Below are positions 2 to 7,213 of a stretch of 34,679 nucleotides of DNA, piece after piece. Within the stretch, counting starts at the first letter, position 1. Each line of letters starts with the position of its first letter. A program made the translations under genes and the position numbers. Source of the DNA: Clostridia bacterium (GTDB lineage Bacteria > Bacillota > Clostridia > Tissierellales > Dethiosulfatibacteraceae). The notes under the pieces are model-generated. The model did not search any database. It had not been told where the DNA came from and saw only the letters and a program-made list of their open reading frames with translations. The stretch covers positions 1 to 34,679 of the forward strand of contig JAABRS010000007.1 of the NCBI GenBank assembly GCA_011390775.1, read 5' to 3'.

Positions 2-1825
2 ATAACTCCAGCTCATGATCCTAATGATTTTGCTATAGGCAAAAGACATGATTTAGAAGAAATATCATGTATGAATGAAAAGGGAATGATGAATTCTTAT
101 GCTGGCAAATATGAAGGAATGGACAGATATGAATGTAGAAAAGCCTTTGTAGAGGACCTTAAAGAAGCTGATTTAATTGTTAAAATAGAAGAAACAGAGC
201 ATTCAGTTGGAGCTTGTTATAGATGTAATACTGTTATAGAACCTAGGATTTCAGAGCAGTGGTTTGTAAAAATGAAGCCTTTAGCTGGTCCGGCTATTGA
301 AGCAGTTAAAGAAGGTAGAACAGAGTTTGTTCCAGAAAGATTTGACAAAATATATTTTCACTGGCTTGAGAATATAAGAGATTGGTGTATTTCTAGACAG
401 TTATGGTGGGGACATAGAATTCCTGCATACTACTGCCAGGACTGCGGAGAAACAATAGTTTCTAAAAAACCACCGGAAAAATGTACAAAATGCGAAAGTG
501 AAAACTTAAAGCAAGATGAAGATGTTTTAGATACCTGGTTTAGTTCCGCATTATGGCCTTTCTCAACTTTAGGATGGCCTGAAGAAACAGAAGATTTAAA
601 ATATTTTTATCCTACAAATGTCCTTGTAACAGGATACGATATTATTTTCTTCTGGGTTATTAGGATGATGTTTTCAGGATTAGAACATATGAATGAAGTA
701 CCTTTTAAACATGTTTTAATACACGGTTTAGTAAGAGATGCAGATGGAAATAAAATGAGCAAATCCAAAGGAAATGGAGTAAATCCATTAGAAGTAATAG
801 ATGAATTTGGAGCCGATGCTCTGAGATTTATGCTTGTAACGGGACTAACTCCAGGAAATGACACTAGATATCAAATTGAAAAACTTGAAGCAAGTAGAAA
901 TTTTGCAAATAAGTTGTGGAATGCATCAAGGTTTGTATTGATGAATTTAGATGGAGCAAATGAAATACCAAACTTAAATATTAAAAATTTAAAAAATGAA
1001 GATAAATGGATTTTGTCTAGAATAAGCAATGTGACAGAAGAGGTAAATAAAAATCTTGAAAACTTCGATTTAGGACTGGCGCTCCATAAAACCTATGAGT
1101 TCATATGGAACGAATACTGCGACTGGTATATAGAATTAGTTAAGCCTAGACTATATGGAGAAGACGAGGAAGATAAAAAAACAGCTCTTTATATTTTAGT
1201 AAATGTAATGAAAGATATGCTTAAACTTCTTCACCCATTTATGCCTTTTATAACTGAAGAAATATGGCAGAATTTACCTCAAAATGAAGGACCTTTGATT
1301 GTAAGTCAATGGCCGGAAGTAAGTATAGAAAACAAATATGGAGATTCTGTTGAAGAAATTAAATTTGCCATGGAAATAATTAAAAGTATAAGAAATGTTA
1401 AGGCAGAAATGGATGTGAAACCTTCAAAAAAAATTAAAGGATATTTTATTCCTAAAAATGAAAAATATAAAGAATATCTTGAAAATACAGAAAGACATCT
1501 AGTTAATTTAATAAACTTAGAAGAGATGACTATATTAACTAATAAGGATATAATCAATGAAGATACAGCTTCTGCTGTAATAGACGGCTTAGAAATATAT
1601 CTTCCGTTATCAAACTTAATTGATTTTGAAAAGGAAAAACAAAGATTGTCAAAAGAAAAAGAAAAACTGGAATCTGAAATTAAAAGAGCCGAAGGAAAAC
1701 TTAAAAATAAAAGTTTCATAGAAAAGGCTCCTGAAAAAATTGTGAATGAAGAAAAAGAGAAGCTAAATAAGTACAAAGATATGTATAATAAATTATTAAA
1801 TAGGATAAAACAAATTAATAGTTGA
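2..1825 (+). CDS. valS: Valine--tRNA ligase, C-terminal part (5' truncated by window edge)
   Basis: Frame is open from base 2 (ITPAHDPNDFAIGKRHDLEEISC...) into the listed ORF; KMSKS motif (KMSKSKGNGVNP), class I aaRS catalytic core, C-terminal coiled-coil (FEKEKQRLSKEKEKLESEIKRAEGKLKN). Confidence 0.97.
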   Translation: MTPAHDPNDFAIGKRHDLEEISCMNEKGMMNSYAGKYEGMDRYECRKAFVEDLKEADLIVKIEETEHSVGACYRCNTVIEPRISEQWFVKMKPLAGPAIEAVKEGRTEFVPERFDKIYFHWLENIRDWCISRQLWWGHRIPAYYCQDCGETIVSKKPPEKCTKCESENLKQDEDVLDTWFSSALWPFSTLGWPEETEDLKYFYPTNVLVTGYDIIFFWVIRMMFSGLEHMNEVPFKHVLIHGLVRDADGNKMSKSKGNGVNPLEVIDEFGADALRFMLVTGLTPGNDTRYQIEKLEASRNFANKLWNASRFVLMNLDGANEIPNLNIKNLKNEDKWILSRISNVTEEVNKNLENFDLGLALHKTYEFIWNEYCDWYIELVKPRLYGEDEEDKKTALYILVNVMKDMLKLLHPFMPFITEEIWQNLPQNEGPLIVSQWPEVSIENKYGDSVEEIKFAMEIIKSIRNVKAEMDVKPSKKIKGYFIPKNEKYKEYLENTERHLVNLINLEEMTILTNKDIINEDTASAVIDGLEIYLPLSNLIDFEKEKQRLSKEKEKLESEIKRAEGKLKNKSFIEKAPEKIVNEEKEKLNKYKDMYNKLLNRIKQINS

Positions 1826-1874
1826 TTTTTTATCCAAAGTGTAATAAACTTTTTATTGTTGTAATTAAATATTT

Positions 1875-1942
1875 CTCGTATAAATTTGGCGATAAGGGTC
1901 AAATGTTTCTACAAACTACCGTAAATAGTTACAGGCTACGAG
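1875..1942 (+). ncRNA. Purine riboswitch aptamer (guanine-class fold with atypical J3/1)
   Basis: P1 CTCGTA/TACGAG (1875-1880/1937-1942); J1/2 UAA; P2 7 bp ATTTGGC/GTCAAAT; L2 GAUAAGG; J2/3 GUUUCUAC; P3 AACTA/TAGTT; L3 CCGUAAA; located upstream of xpt. Confidence 0.93.
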
Positions 1943-1986
1943 TTCTGAACAAAAATTAATTTTTGTGTTAATTTTGTTGTGAACTC
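1940..1986 (+). promoter_or_regulatory. Putative riboswitch antiterminator stem
   Basis: GAGTTC (1940-1945, sharing GAG with the P1 3' strand) is complementary to GAACTC (1981-1986); inner AACAAAAATTAA / TTAATTTTGTT extends the stem. Confidence 0.75.
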
Positions 1987-2012
1987 TGCTTTTAGCAGAG
2001 TTTTACTTTTTT
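1982..2012 (+). terminator. Rho-independent terminator of the riboswitch expression platform
   Basis: AACTCTGC-TTTTA-GCAGAGTT perfect 8-bp stem followed by TTACTTTTTT, just before the xpt start codon. Confidence 0.9.
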
Positions 2013-2026
2013 ATGAAGGAGAATGT

Positions 2027-2593
2027 ATGGAATTATTAAAACAAAAGATTTTAAAAGAAGGCAAAGCATTAGGAAATAATATTGTTAAAGTTGATTCTTT
2101 TCTCAATCATCAGATAGATGTTAATCTCTTACAGAGCATAGGAAAAGAATTTCACAAAAGATTTGAAGATGATAATATAACAAAGATTTTAACAATAGAA
2201 GCTTCGGGAATAGCTATAGCAACGGTAACTGCTTTGTATTTTAATGTTCCAGTGGTTTTTGCTAAAAAAACTGAATCATTGAATTTAGATGAAGATGTAT
2301 ATACTCACAAGGTATTTTCATATACTAAAGACAGATATTACGACATTAAAGTTTCAAAAAAATATCTTGATGAAAAGGACAATGTTTTAATAATTGATGA
2401 TTTTTTAGCAAAAGGACAAGCAGCATTAGGACTTTATAATATTGTAAAACAGAGCAAGGCAAAGGTAAAAGGTATCGGTATAGTTGTAGAAAAAGGATTC
2501 CAAGATGGTAGAGAATTACTACTTGAAAAAGGAATCAAATTAGAATCACTAGCAATAGTAAAAAAAATCCAAGAGGGAAAAATTATTTTCTAA
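2027..2593 (+). CDS. xpt: Xanthine phosphoribosyltransferase
   Basis: MELLKQKILKEGKALGNNIVKVDSFLNHQIDVNLL...; PRPP motif NVLIIDDFLAKGQA; ATG at 2027 preceded by GAAGGAG. The listed ORF start at 1979 overlaps the terminator and is too early. Confidence 0.93.
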   Translation: MELLKQKILKEGKALGNNIVKVDSFLNHQIDVNLLQSIGKEFHKRFEDDNITKILTIEASGIAIATVTALYFNVPVVFAKKTESLNLDEDVYTHKVFSYTKDRYYDIKVSKKYLDEKDNVLIIDDFLAKGQAALGLYNIVKQSKAKVKGIGIVVEKGFQDGRELLLEKGIKLESLAIVKKIQEGKIIF

Positions 2594-2608: not shown

Positions 2609-3694
2609 ATGAAAAAACTTTTATTAGTACTTTTATCATTAATTTTAATATTATCACTTGCAGCTTGTGGAAATGACCAAGGGGAAGAGCCATCAGCAGA
2701 GGAAGAATTAACTGTAGGATTCATATATGTTGGACCTATAGGTGATGGTGGATGGACATATGCCCACAATGAAGGAAGATTATATCTTGAAGAGAACATG
2801 AATGTAAAAACTATTTATAAAGAATCAGTTCCAGAAACTCAAGAAGTAGAACAAGAAATAAGAAATATGATTGATCAGGGAGCTGAAGCAATTTTTGCTA
2901 CAAGTTTTGGTTATATGGATTATATAGAAAAAGTATCAAAAGATTATCCTGAGGTTGCTTTTTTTCACTGTTCAGGGTATAAAACTACAGAGAATTTAGC
3001 TACATATTTTGGTAGAATATATGAACCTAGATATTTAAGTGGTATTGTAGCAGGTTTAAAAACAGAAACAAATCAAATTGGATACGTAGCAGCTTACCCA
3101 ATACCTGAAGTTATAAGAGGTATAAATGCATTTACATTAGGGGCTCAATCTGTAAATCCTGATGTTACTGTTAGTGTAAAATGGACTTCAACTTGGTACG
3201 ATCCAGCAATAGAAAAAGAAGCAGCAGTAGCCTTAATAGATGAAGGTGCAGACGTAATAGCACAGCATCAAGATACTACAGGACCACAGCAGGCAGCTGA
3301 AGAAAGAGGAGTTTATTCTATAGGGTATAATACAGATATGGCTGAAATGGCACCGGAAGCATACATGACAGCTCCAATATGGAACTGGGGACCATACTAT
3401 GTTGAGCAGGTTCAAAATGTTATTGATGGATCATTCGAATCCCATCAATACTGGGGTGGAATAGAAGATAATATAGTTGAGTTGGCGCCATTAACTGATT
3501 TGGCACCAGATGAAGCTCAGGAAAAAATAGATGAATCTAAAACAGAAATCCTAAATGATGAACTATTAGTATTTGAAGGACCTATTTACGATCAAGAAGG
3601 AAACTTAAAAGTTGAAGAAGGACAGAATTTATCAGTTGAAGAAATGCTGAATATGATGTGGTTTGTTGAAGGTGTAGAAGGAAATATAGAATAG
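2609..3694 (+). CDS. BMP-family ABC transporter substrate-binding lipoprotein (nucleoside/purine uptake type)
   Basis: Lipoprotein signal MKKLLLVLLSLILILSLAACGN; BMP/Med-type features (GFIYVGPIGDGGWTYAHNEG...); downstream ABC genes. Confidence 0.9.
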   Translation: MKKLLLVLLSLILILSLAACGNDQGEEPSAEEELTVGFIYVGPIGDGGWTYAHNEGRLYLEENMNVKTIYKESVPETQEVEQEIRNMIDQGAEAIFATSFGYMDYIEKVSKDYPEVAFFHCSGYKTTENLATYFGRIYEPRYLSGIVAGLKTETNQIGYVAAYPIPEVIRGINAFTLGAQSVNPDVTVSVKWTSTWYDPAIEKEAAVALIDEGADVIAQHQDTTGPQQAAEERGVYSIGYNTDMAEMAPEAYMTAPIWNWGPYYVEQVQNVIDGSFESHQYWGGIEDNIVELAPLTDLAPDEAQEKIDESKTEILNDELLVFEGPIYDQEGNLKVEEGQNLSVEEMLNMMWFVEGVEGNIE

Positions 3695-3703
3695 AGGATA
3701 GCT

Positions 3704-5227
3704 ATGGATCAAAATATTTATGTAAAAATGGAAAGCATAAGTAAAAATTTCGGCACTGTTAAAGCAAATGATAATATTAATTTAACAGTAAAAAAAGGTG
3801 AGATCCATGCTCTTTTAGGAGAAAATGGTGCAGGGAAAAGCACCCTTATGAACATGCTATCAGGTTTTTATAAGCCTGATAGCGGTTCTATATATATACA
3901 TGGAGAGCCTGTTAAATTTGATTCTCCAAAGGATTCAATAAAAAAAGGTATTGGTATGATACATCAACATTATAAATTAGTGGAAGCTATGACTGCTGTA
4001 CAAAACATTACATTAGGACAAAAAGGCAGCTTTTTTTTAAGTGAAAAGAAAAGCAAGAATAAAATAAAAAAAGTAGCAGAAAGTTATGGTTTAAAAATAA
4101 ACTATGATAAAAAAGTATATGAAATGTCAATTGGTGAAAAACAAGCTACAGAAATAATTAAGGTTTTATATCAAGGAGCAGATATTTTAATAATGGACGA
4201 ACCAACCGCAGTACTAACTCCCCAAGAAACAAAAAAACTTTTTGAAATATTAAAAAATATGGCTAGAGAAGGTTGTTCAATTATTATCATAACTCATAAA
4301 CTACACGAAGTAATGGAAATATCTCATAAAGTAACTGTTTTAAGAAAAGGTCAAACTATCAAAACACTAGAAACTGAAAAAACTAATTCTAAAGAATTGA
4401 CAGATTTAATGGTAGGTAGAGCAGTAGATTTATCTATAGACAGACCTGAGGTTGAAATAGGTGAAGAAATCCTAAAAATTGAAAATTTAACTGCCGAAGA
4501 TGTAGATAAGGTAGAAGTTTTGAAAAATGTTTCTTTTAATCTTCGAAAAGGAGAAATATTAGGAGTAGCTGGAGTAGCTGGTAGCGGCCAAAAAGAATTA
4601 TGCGAAGCTATTGCAGGACTTTATAAAATAAAAAAAGGGAAAATCTTATATGAAAATGAAGATATTGTTGGACTATCACCTAGAGATATAATTCATAAAG
4701 GTATTAGTATGAGCTTTATTCCGGAAGATAGATTAGGTATGGGACTTGTGGCTTCAATGGATATGGTAGATAATTACTTACTTAAAGAGCAGCACAAACA
4801 AAAAGGAATTTTTATTAAAAGAAAACCTGTTAAAGAAAAGTGTAATAATATGATAAGTAAACTTGAAATACAAACACCGGGAACATCACATCCTGTAAAA
4901 CAACTATCCGGTGGAAATATTCAGAAGGTTTTAATAGGTAGAGAGATAGATACAAATCCTCATGTTTTAATAACAGCATATGCAGTTAGAGGACTAGATA
5001 TAGCATCATCTCACACTATATATGATCTACTTAACGAACAGAAGAAAAAAGACGTAGGTATTTTGTTTATTGGTGAGGATTTAGATGTGCTTTTAAAGCT
5101 TTGTGACCGAATAATGGTGCTTTCAAGTGGCAGAGTAACTGGAATAGTATCAGCTAAAGAAACAACAAAAGAAAAAATTGGCTTATTAATGTCCGACGAA
5201 ATTAATACAGAGGTGTTGGCAGTATGA
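3704..5227 (+). CDS. ABC transporter ATP-binding protein, tandem NBDs (nucleoside/BMP type)
   Basis: Walker A GENGAGKST, Walker B ILIMDEPTAVLTPQE; second NBD degenerate (GVAGSGQKE, LITAYAVRGLDIASS). Confidence 0.93.
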   Translation: MDQNIYVKMESISKNFGTVKANDNINLTVKKGEIHALLGENGAGKSTLMNMLSGFYKPDSGSIYIHGEPVKFDSPKDSIKKGIGMIHQHYKLVEAMTAVQNITLGQKGSFFLSEKKSKNKIKKVAESYGLKINYDKKVYEMSIGEKQATEIIKVLYQGADILIMDEPTAVLTPQETKKLFEILKNMAREGCSIIIITHKLHEVMEISHKVTVLRKGQTIKTLETEKTNSKELTDLMVGRAVDLSIDRPEVEIGEEILKIENLTAEDVDKVEVLKNVSFNLRKGEILGVAGVAGSGQKELCEAIAGLYKIKKGKILYENEDIVGLSPRDIIHKGISMSFIPEDRLGMGLVASMDMVDNYLLKEQHKQKGIFIKRKPVKEKCNNMISKLEIQTPGTSHPVKQLSGGNIQKVLIGREIDTNPHVLITAYAVRGLDIASSHTIYDLLNEQKKKDVGILFIGEDLDVLLKLCDRIMVLSSGRVTGIVSAKETTKEKIGLLMSDEINTEVLAV

Positions 5228-6300
5228 GAATGATAAAAAGAGAAAGAATCTCCAAAAAAGATGCATTTAGAATAAGATCTACTGCTATAATAGGTTCACT
5301 AATTCTCTCTGGATTGTTTATATTTTTCTTAGGGCATAATCCATTGGATGTATACTTATCAATGGCAAAAGGAGCTTTTGGTTCTATATATAGAATAAAA
5401 GATACTATCAATATAATAATCCCTTTAATCATGACCTCTCTGGGAATAATGATAGCATTTAAAATGAAGTTTTGGAATATTGGCGGAGAAGGTCAAATTT
5501 TAATGGGGGCTTTATTTGCAAGCTATTTCGCATTAAACTTTTCAACTCTTCCAAAACCAATACTATTGTTTGTTATGTTTATTGCTGGATTTATAGGGGG
5601 AGGTTTTTGGGCTTTTATACCGGCATTTCTAAAGGTTAAATTTCAAACTAATGAAACTATAACAACATTAATGATGAACTATATAGCATTAAATTTAATT
5701 ACTTATTTACAATATGGACCTTGGAGGGATCCTCAATCTTTAGGATTCCCTAAAATAGCTAATTTTGCAGATAGTGCAACTCTACCTAGATTATTTGGAA
5801 TACATATAGGTTGGATAATAACTATAATTGCAGTTGTTGTTATTACTATATTCTTAAATAAATCAAAATTTGGATATGAAATCAAAGTAGTAGGAGAAAG
5901 TCAAGATACTGCAAACTATTCAGGAATTAGAGTCAATCGCGTTATTATTAGAGGATTAATAATCAGCGGTGGAATATGCGGAATTGTTGGAATGATGGAA
6001 GTTTCTGGAGTTAACGGTACACTTACAAATCATGTATCAGCAGGATACGGTTATACTGCTATAATTACTACATGGCTATCCGGATTAAAACCAGCTTTTA
6101 TAATTCCTGTATCTACTTTATTTGCAGGTCTAATAAAAGGAGGAGGATTTATACAGACTGCTTATCAAATCCCTCAATCTGCAGCTGATATAATACAAAG
6201 CATGATATTATTTTTTGTTATAGGAAGTGAGTTTTTTATTCAATATAAAATAGTTCCGGATAGAAGAAATGCTAAAGGAGGAGAAGTAAATGTTAGTTAA
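5224..6300 (+). CDS. ABC transporter permease (nucleoside/BMP type)
   Basis: Hydrophobic, FKMKFWNIGGEGQILMGALFASY motif typical of BPD_transp_2 permeases; overlaps the ATPase gene. Confidence 0.93.
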   Translation: MRMIKRERISKKDAFRIRSTAIIGSLILSGLFIFFLGHNPLDVYLSMAKGAFGSIYRIKDTINIIIPLIMTSLGIMIAFKMKFWNIGGEGQILMGALFASYFALNFSTLPKPILLFVMFIAGFIGGGFWAFIPAFLKVKFQTNETITTLMMNYIALNLITYLQYGPWRDPQSLGFPKIANFADSATLPRLFGIHIGWIITIIAVVVITIFLNKSKFGYEIKVVGESQDTANYSGIRVNRVIIRGLIISGGICGIVGMMEVSGVNGTLTNHVSAGYGYTAIITTWLSGLKPAFIIPVSTLFAGLIKGGGFIQTAYQIPQSAADIIQSMILFFVIGSEFFIQYKIVPDRRNAKGGEVNVS

Positions 6301-7213
6301 TATACTAAAGGCATCATTAGTTGCGGGGACTCCTTTACTATTAGCAACCTTAGGGGAACTTATAACAGAAAAAGCTGGAAATTTAAATTTAGGTGTTGAA
6401 GGTATGATGCTAGTAGGAGCTATATCAGGATTTGCTTTAGGATTTTATTTTCAAAATCCATATATGGCTTTAATAGGAGCTTCTCTATCGGGAAGTTTCG
6501 CTGCATTAATTTACGGGTTTTTAACTATAACACTAAGATCAAATCAAGTTGTCTCCGGGTTGTCCTTGACAATATTTGGTACCGGGCTTTCAAGTTTTTT
6601 AGGGACTAATTTCGTAGGGAAGAAAATGCCTGTTGAAGTAATTAACTTTTTTAAACCTATAGAAATTCCTTTAATTTCTAAAATTCCAATCATTGGAGAA
6701 GTTCTTTTTAATCAAGATATATACGTATACTTTAGTTATATACTAGCAGTATTTTTGGGAATCTATCTGTTTAAAACTAGAAAAGGATTAAATCTAACAG
6801 CTATTGGAGAAAATCCTTCAGCTGCAGATGCAGCAGGGATAAAGATAGATTTGTATAAATACATACATATTCTTATTGGAGGAGCATTATGCGGTCTGGG
6901 TGGTGCTTATCTTTCAGTAGTACAGGTACCAACTTGGCAGGAAAACATAACTGCTGGTAGAGGATGGATTGCTATTGCCTTAGTTATTTTTTCGAAATGG
7001 AATCCATTTAAGTCTATCTATGGTGCATATTTGTTTGGAGGATTAAGTATTATTGGTTTTAGAATTCAGTATTTAAATATATCTCAAAATCTACTTAATA
7101 TGCTGCCTTATATAGTTACAATAGTTGTATTAGTATTTAGTTCACTAAATAAATCAAAAGAAGGAAGTCCTCCTAAATCATTGAGTCTTCCTTATTTTAG
7201 AGAAGAAAGATAA
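6290..7213 (+). CDS. ABC transporter permease (nucleoside/BMP type)
   Basis: ITEKAGNLNLGVEGMMLVGAISGF motif; overlaps the upstream permease. Confidence 0.93.
   Translation: MLVNILKASLVAGTPLLLATLGELITEKAGNLNLGVEGMMLVGAISGFALGFYFQNPYMALIGASLSGSFAALIYGFLTITLRSNQVVSGLSLTIFGTGLSSFLGTNFVGKKMPVEVINFFKPIEIPLISKIPIIGEVLFNQDIYVYFSYILAVFLGIYLFKTRKGLNLTAIGENPSAADAAGIKIDLYKYIHILIGGALCGLGGAYLSVVQVPTWQENITAGRGWIAIALVIFSKWNPFKSIYGAYLFGGLSIIGFRIQYLNISQNLLNMLPYIVTIVVLVFSSLNKSKEGSPPKSLSLPYFREER

Follow-up and report, generated by a model that had tools for sequence, protein, structure and literature searches.

A probable guanine-II riboswitch with an expanded J3/1 junction and predicted OFF control of an xpt operon in a Clostridia bacterium

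The 34,679-nucleotide stretch of Clostridia DNA analysed here, referred to below as the window, carries at positions 1875-1942 a purine-riboswitch aptamer with a conserved, expanded J3/1, and we consider it probable (about 0.8) that this element is a guanine-II riboswitch which places the adjoining xpt operon under guanine-triggered OFF control. Guanine-riboswitch variants with an expanded J3-1 were reported by Hamal Dhakal et al. (2022; PMC9295807). They include xanthine-II, marked by U51G, two extra J2-3 nucleotides and purine-degradation genes, and guanine-II, in which U51 is kept, one extra J2-3 nucleotide is present and the associated genes are mostly PRT genes. A guanine-II representative bound guanine at ~8 nM or better and left xanthine unbound at 100 uM (PMC9295807), and a solved guanine-II structure is attributed to Li et al. 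(2025, NAR gkaf884), as cited in PMC13374515.

The Rfam search of the window returned RF00167 at 1856-1958 on the plus strand (62.1 bits, gathering threshold 37, E=1.2e-8), which upholds the purine-riboswitch scaffold proposed by the initial annotation and is the sole Rfam match within the window to reach its gathering threshold. In the host MAG (2.1 Mb, 82% complete), this is the only purine aptamer detected. The coordinates and core elements given at that earlier stage, including a 7-bp P2, are correct on direct reading, and the aptamer is composed as follows.

1875-1880, plus strand: 5' strand of P1, CUCGUA, forming 6 bp with 1937-1942 and 100% paired in the alignment of 16 relatives
1881-1883, plus strand: J1/2, UAA, invariant in the 16 relatives; U1881 corresponds to U22
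1884-1904, plus strand: P2 (1884-1890 with 1898-1904, 7 bp, with a G1889-U1899 wobble) and its loop L2, GAUAAGG (1891-1897)
1905-1913, plus strand: J2/3, GUUUCUAC (1905-1912) followed by an inserted A1913, from the sequence and the relatives' alignment; U1910 corresponds to U51
1914-1930, plus strand: P3, AACUA/UAGUU (1914-1918 with 1926-1930, 5 bp, from covariation), and its loop L3, CCGUAAA (1919-1925)
1931-1936, plus strand: expanded J3/1, ACAGGC, where the canonical junction is AC, from the sequence and relatives; C1936 corresponds to C74
1937-1942, plus strand: 3' strand of P1, UACGAG, whose GAG is shared with the first arm of the antiterminator

Relatives were collected by scanning genome contigs with a pattern for long-J3/1 purine aptamers, which yielded 19 stretches, 15 of them real aptamers; the pattern matches in L013, L016, L017 and L024 were set aside as chance occurrences, the P1/P2 context being absent. 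The window, its close relatives and the recovered long-J3/1 aptamers were combined into an alignment of 16 rows, in which the three-stem junction and the L2-L3 kissing loop are present, with 20 pairs and 95.9% of cells paired. All seven pairs of P2 vary on both sides in a compensatory manner, compensatory changes occur at 5/5 pairs of P3, and the GG/CC pairs of the kissing loop (GG 1896-1897 with CC 1919-1920) are invariant.

The same alignment settles the boundary between P3 and its flanking junctions. Every row has an A at the position of A1913 and, facing it at A1931, either A or C but never U, so that A1913 reads as a 1-nt J2/3 insertion rather than part of a P3 pair, and pairing of A1913 with A1931 to close P3 is ruled out. 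The A-A mismatch placed inside P3 by the initial annotation is thus better read as this insertion. By these sequence comparisons, P3 is a 5-bp stem and J3/1 the hexamer ACAGGC, 4 nt longer than the canonical AC; the expansion noted earlier at CAGGC (1932-1936) stands, while its size, put at about 3 extra nucleotides, has to be extended to a 6-nt junction that includes A1931. A comparison of J3/1 across relatives had also been proposed, and it finds the expansion in the same genus (L003, L021), in the same family (L004, L005) and in other Clostridia. As these are independent assemblies carrying the same J3/1, sequencing error is excluded as its source.

A plain guanine-I aptamer whose P3 has a small internal bulge, whose J3/1 change is neutral and whose pocket is canonical would fit an Rfam alignment that needs a 2-nt insertion only; short AGGC forms precede the same operon in other Clostridia (L027, L036), and whether guanine-I and guanine-II truly differ was left undecided by the authors who described the variants (PMC9295807). 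We nevertheless regard this explanation as improbable, since distantly related bacteria keep both the nYAGGC J3/1 and the extra A despite drift in the P3 sequence, and since the window lacks a C54 to close the canonical P3 and has G in place of A73. The solved guanine-II structures are also reported to lack the crossing linker-linker pair of other purine riboswitches (PMC13374515). The guanine-I aptamer of B. subtilis xpt resembles that of the window in scaffold, in most junction residues, in the xpt gene and in an OFF logic of exchange between P1 and antiterminator, but its J3/1 is AC and its J2/3 has no insertion, whereas the window has ACAGGC and the inserted A1913.

Among the variant classes, U51 together with one extra J2/3 nucleotide identifies guanine-II by sequence and predicts guanine, not xanthine, as the ligand. 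The window combines U1881 (U22), U1910 (U51), C1936 (C74), the A1913 insertion and a J3/1 ending in AGGC, and its aptamer is therefore most likely guanine-II and most likely not a xanthine sensor; C1936 is predicted to be the Watson-Crick partner of the ligand. The initial annotation had stated that such variant classes exist, as indeed they do, both xanthine-II and guanine-II being recovered from Paenibacillus (below). It could not confirm that this J3/1 matches a described class, which it does, that of guanine-II, and its favoured ligand, xanthine, is not borne out by the junctions. A xanthine sensor matching the substrate of Xpt would be metabolically sensible, since xanthine is the base that Xpt converts to XMP; the operon opens with xpt, and the J3/1 of xanthine-II has the same length and a near-identical sequence (CCAGGC versus ACAGGC). 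This explanation is nonetheless improbable: U51G and two extra J2/3 nucleotides were present in every xanthine-II aptamer fetched, and the window has neither; the class that keeps U51 is the one that rejected xanthine; and the gene neighbours of xanthine-II are degradative, whereas purine-degradation genes were not found downstream in the window. On U51 and the length of J2/3, membership in xanthine-II is rejected.

The value of these two positions can be judged in a sample of 100 Paenibacillus genomes searched with a covariance model built on the aptamer group to which the window belongs. All 34 fetched U51 aptamers with a long J3/1 carried a single inserted A (34/34), and all 14 fetched xanthine-II aptamers carried G51 and an inserted CA in J2/3 (14/14). 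Neighbouring genes, assigned by family searches on examples and otherwise by eye, differed accordingly: a PRT gene and then an IMPDH-like gene followed the U51 aptamers at 8/10 loci and a Rieske oxygenase at 2/10, while allantoinase lay downstream of G51 aptamers at 8/10 loci and a Rieske oxygenase again at 2/10. The long J3/1 was CCAGGC in nearly all that were fetched, differing from the window in its first base; two aptamers, L109 and L110, had ACAGGC or AUAGGC instead. These two, with U51 and one extra A, precede genes for a Rieske oxygenase and a reductase-like protein in place of a PRT gene; as they share the junction type of the window and Rieske oxygenase also accompanies xanthine-II, they speak against the guanine-II assignment.

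The genes downstream of the aptamer in the window form the following operon.

2027-2593, plus strand: xpt, xanthine phosphoribosyltransferase, starting with ATG at 2027 with AAGGAG just upstream (TIGR01744, 250 bits against a cut-off of 164; NF006671, 279 bits)
2609-3694, plus strand: Bmp/PnrA-like (purine-nucleoside-type) ABC substrate-binding lipoprotein (PF02608, 240 bits)
3704-5227, plus strand: ATP-binding protein of this ABC transporter
5224-6300, plus strand: ABC permease 1 (PF02653)
6290-7213, plus strand: ABC permease 2 (PF02653)

The TIGR01744 score thus confirms xpt as the gene directly downstream, as first annotated, and the order aptamer, xpt, Bmp is common to seven further loci (L003, L004, L010, L012, L014, L019, L020). 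A PRT gene downstream is in keeping with guanine-II, although it encodes an XPRTase, the type that accompanies guanine-I in Paenibacillus and unlike the PRT type found there with guanine-II, and the Clostridia operon of xpt and nucleoside ABC transporter differs from the known PRT-IMPDH arrangement of Paenibacillus. The genes preceded by U51 relatives, namely xpt with a nucleoside transporter, PRT with IMPDH, purE, purL and a permease, are consistent with guanine and support the assignment. On the other strand, a 198-aa antisense ORF at 1306-1902 (minus strand) overlaps the end of a valS-like gene and the aptamer, and appears to be a mere consequence of the coding sequence opposite.

The nucleoside-type transporter also raises the question of a sensor for another guanine derivative, such as a nucleoside, 2'-deoxyguanosine or 8-oxoguanine, and the purine-riboswitch scaffold has switched ligand repeatedly (PMC9295807). 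We judge this very unlikely, because the J1/2 and J2/3 core of the window equals the consensus, whereas 2'-dG-III has all three junctions changed and occurs solely with nucleoside hydrolase genes (PMC9295807); in the window, J1/2 UAA and the J2/3 core are kept, and no nucleoside hydrolase gene lies in the operon.

Between the aptamer and xpt, two mutually exclusive structures are predicted.

1940-1987, plus strand: antiterminator hairpin of ~-15.5 kcal/mol, pairing GAGUUC (1940-1945) with GAACUC (1982-1987), with a long inner stem
1981-2003, plus strand: intrinsic terminator, GAACUCUGCUUUUAGCAGAGUUU followed by UACUUUUUU, identified by folding (1 found versus 0.1 expected in shuffles)

The 3' strand of P1 ends with the first half of GAGUUC, and GAACUC lies in the 5' arm of the terminator. 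When the transcript was folded at increasing lengths, P1 was at first intact, was then broken by the antiterminator (1990-1995) and reappeared together with the terminator from 2000 onwards. Mutually exclusive pairing of the GAGUUC/GAACUC type is kept in 8/8 Clostridia loci (the window and seven relatives), with compensatory changes among the relatives, for example GAGUUU with GGGCUC. A consensus scan for a sigma-70-like promoter upstream found none, a result of little weight.

Since the 5' arm of the terminator can base-pair with the 3' strand of P1, ligand binding should cause termination. Guanine would bind the three-stem junction, held by the kissing loop, through C1936, U1910 and U1881, in a pocket that would be rearranged by the one extra J2/3 nucleotide and the 6-nt J3/1. 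By stabilising P1, it would keep GAGUUC from GAACUC, the terminator would then form, and transcription would stop short of xpt and the genes for the nucleoside ABC transporter; without guanine, the antiterminator would form and the operon would be transcribed. Both guanine as the ligand and OFF as the direction of control are inferred from these features. In Paenibacillus, by contrast, the predicted terminator stem of guanine-II and xanthine-II starts in J3/1 and extends over the 3' strand of P1, and an ON design has been predicted for these variants (PMC9295807). The polarities predicted from secondary structure, OFF by antitermination in Clostridia and ON in Paenibacillus, therefore differ; this departure from the studied members counts against our reading of the window, although polarity lies outside the definition of the aptamer class.

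The expanded-J3-1 variants have been called Firmicutes-only (PMC9295807). With the covariance model of the window's group, 12/50 Atribacterota genomes scored 75-92 bits, and U51 with a long J3/1 is present in all eight Atribacterota aptamers read (L006, L007, L009, L022, L119, L122-L124). Such forms occur in 4/7 genomes of a small Chloroflexota class (L008 and L131-L133 were read) and, among the matches listed, in at least 16 of 251 genomes of the Selenomonas class. The Atribacterota and Chloroflexota aptamers have two extra J2/3 nucleotides. They precede purE-purC-purS-purQ-purL in Atribacterota and purL in Chloroflexota, while in Selenomonas the U51 long-J3/1 aptamer stands before a gene resembling a purine permease; of these neighbours, purE was confirmed by family search and the others were named by eye. 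Hybrid junctions, in which U51 is accompanied by a two-nucleotide J2/3 insertion, CA, are seen in L004, L005, L007, L008, L009 and L011, of which L004 belongs to the window's own family and stands before the same xpt operon.

In an Atribacterota locus (L009, 759-896, before purE) and a Chloroflexota locus (L008, 1604-1701, minus strand, before purL), the long-J3/1 aptamer is directly followed by a ykkC-type aptamer (RF00442, 33.9 and 60.6 bits, respectively, both below the gathering threshold of 63). Together with the pur genes that come next, this arrangement points to probable tandem guanine-PRPP switches in which the guanine half is a variant, comparable to the tandem riboswitch of Sherlock et al. 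(2018; PMC5912903); the window differs in having a single aptamer. We tentatively propose, as a possibility with the odds against it, that the expanded-J3/1 guanine aptamer is much wider than the Firmicutes-only set reported in PMC9295807, with an OFF version running purine salvage and uptake in Clostridia and the hybrid form, found in the window's family, Negativicutes, Atribacterota and Chloroflexota, supplying the guanine component of tandem guanine-PRPP switches and perhaps having a ligand preference of its own.

Several other aptamers were met along the way. The short AGGC forms (L027, L036) lie before an xpt-Bmp operon and have A73G and an A-A at the base of P3; they are possible intermediates between guanine-I and guanine-II. 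A stepwise origin from guanine-I through these forms is not claimed, because the backbone of the Xpt tree lacks resolution and the AGGC forms cluster with a canonical one. Selenomonas aptamers (L011 972-1041, also L015 and L018) have a J3/1 of AAAGUC and a P1 3' strand that runs into AGGAGG before a permease-like gene, and are probable translational OFF switches. A genome of the window's family (G005) has a second purine aptamer (L002 1312-1380), which retains C74 and whose P3 contains a bulged U, before an adenine deaminase-like gene.

Guanine-II as a class is already described, while the predicted OFF expression platform of the window differs from the characterised Paenibacillus examples. 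A plausible guess of xanthine is corrected here by a two-position rule, U51 and the length of J2/3, which matched gene context in most of the sampled Paenibacillus loci. The hybrid relatives bear on which of the two, the length of J2/3 or U51G, determines specificity for xanthine, and a natural comparison is offered by near-identical guanine-II pockets whose output is predicted to be OFF in Clostridia but ON in Paenibacillus.
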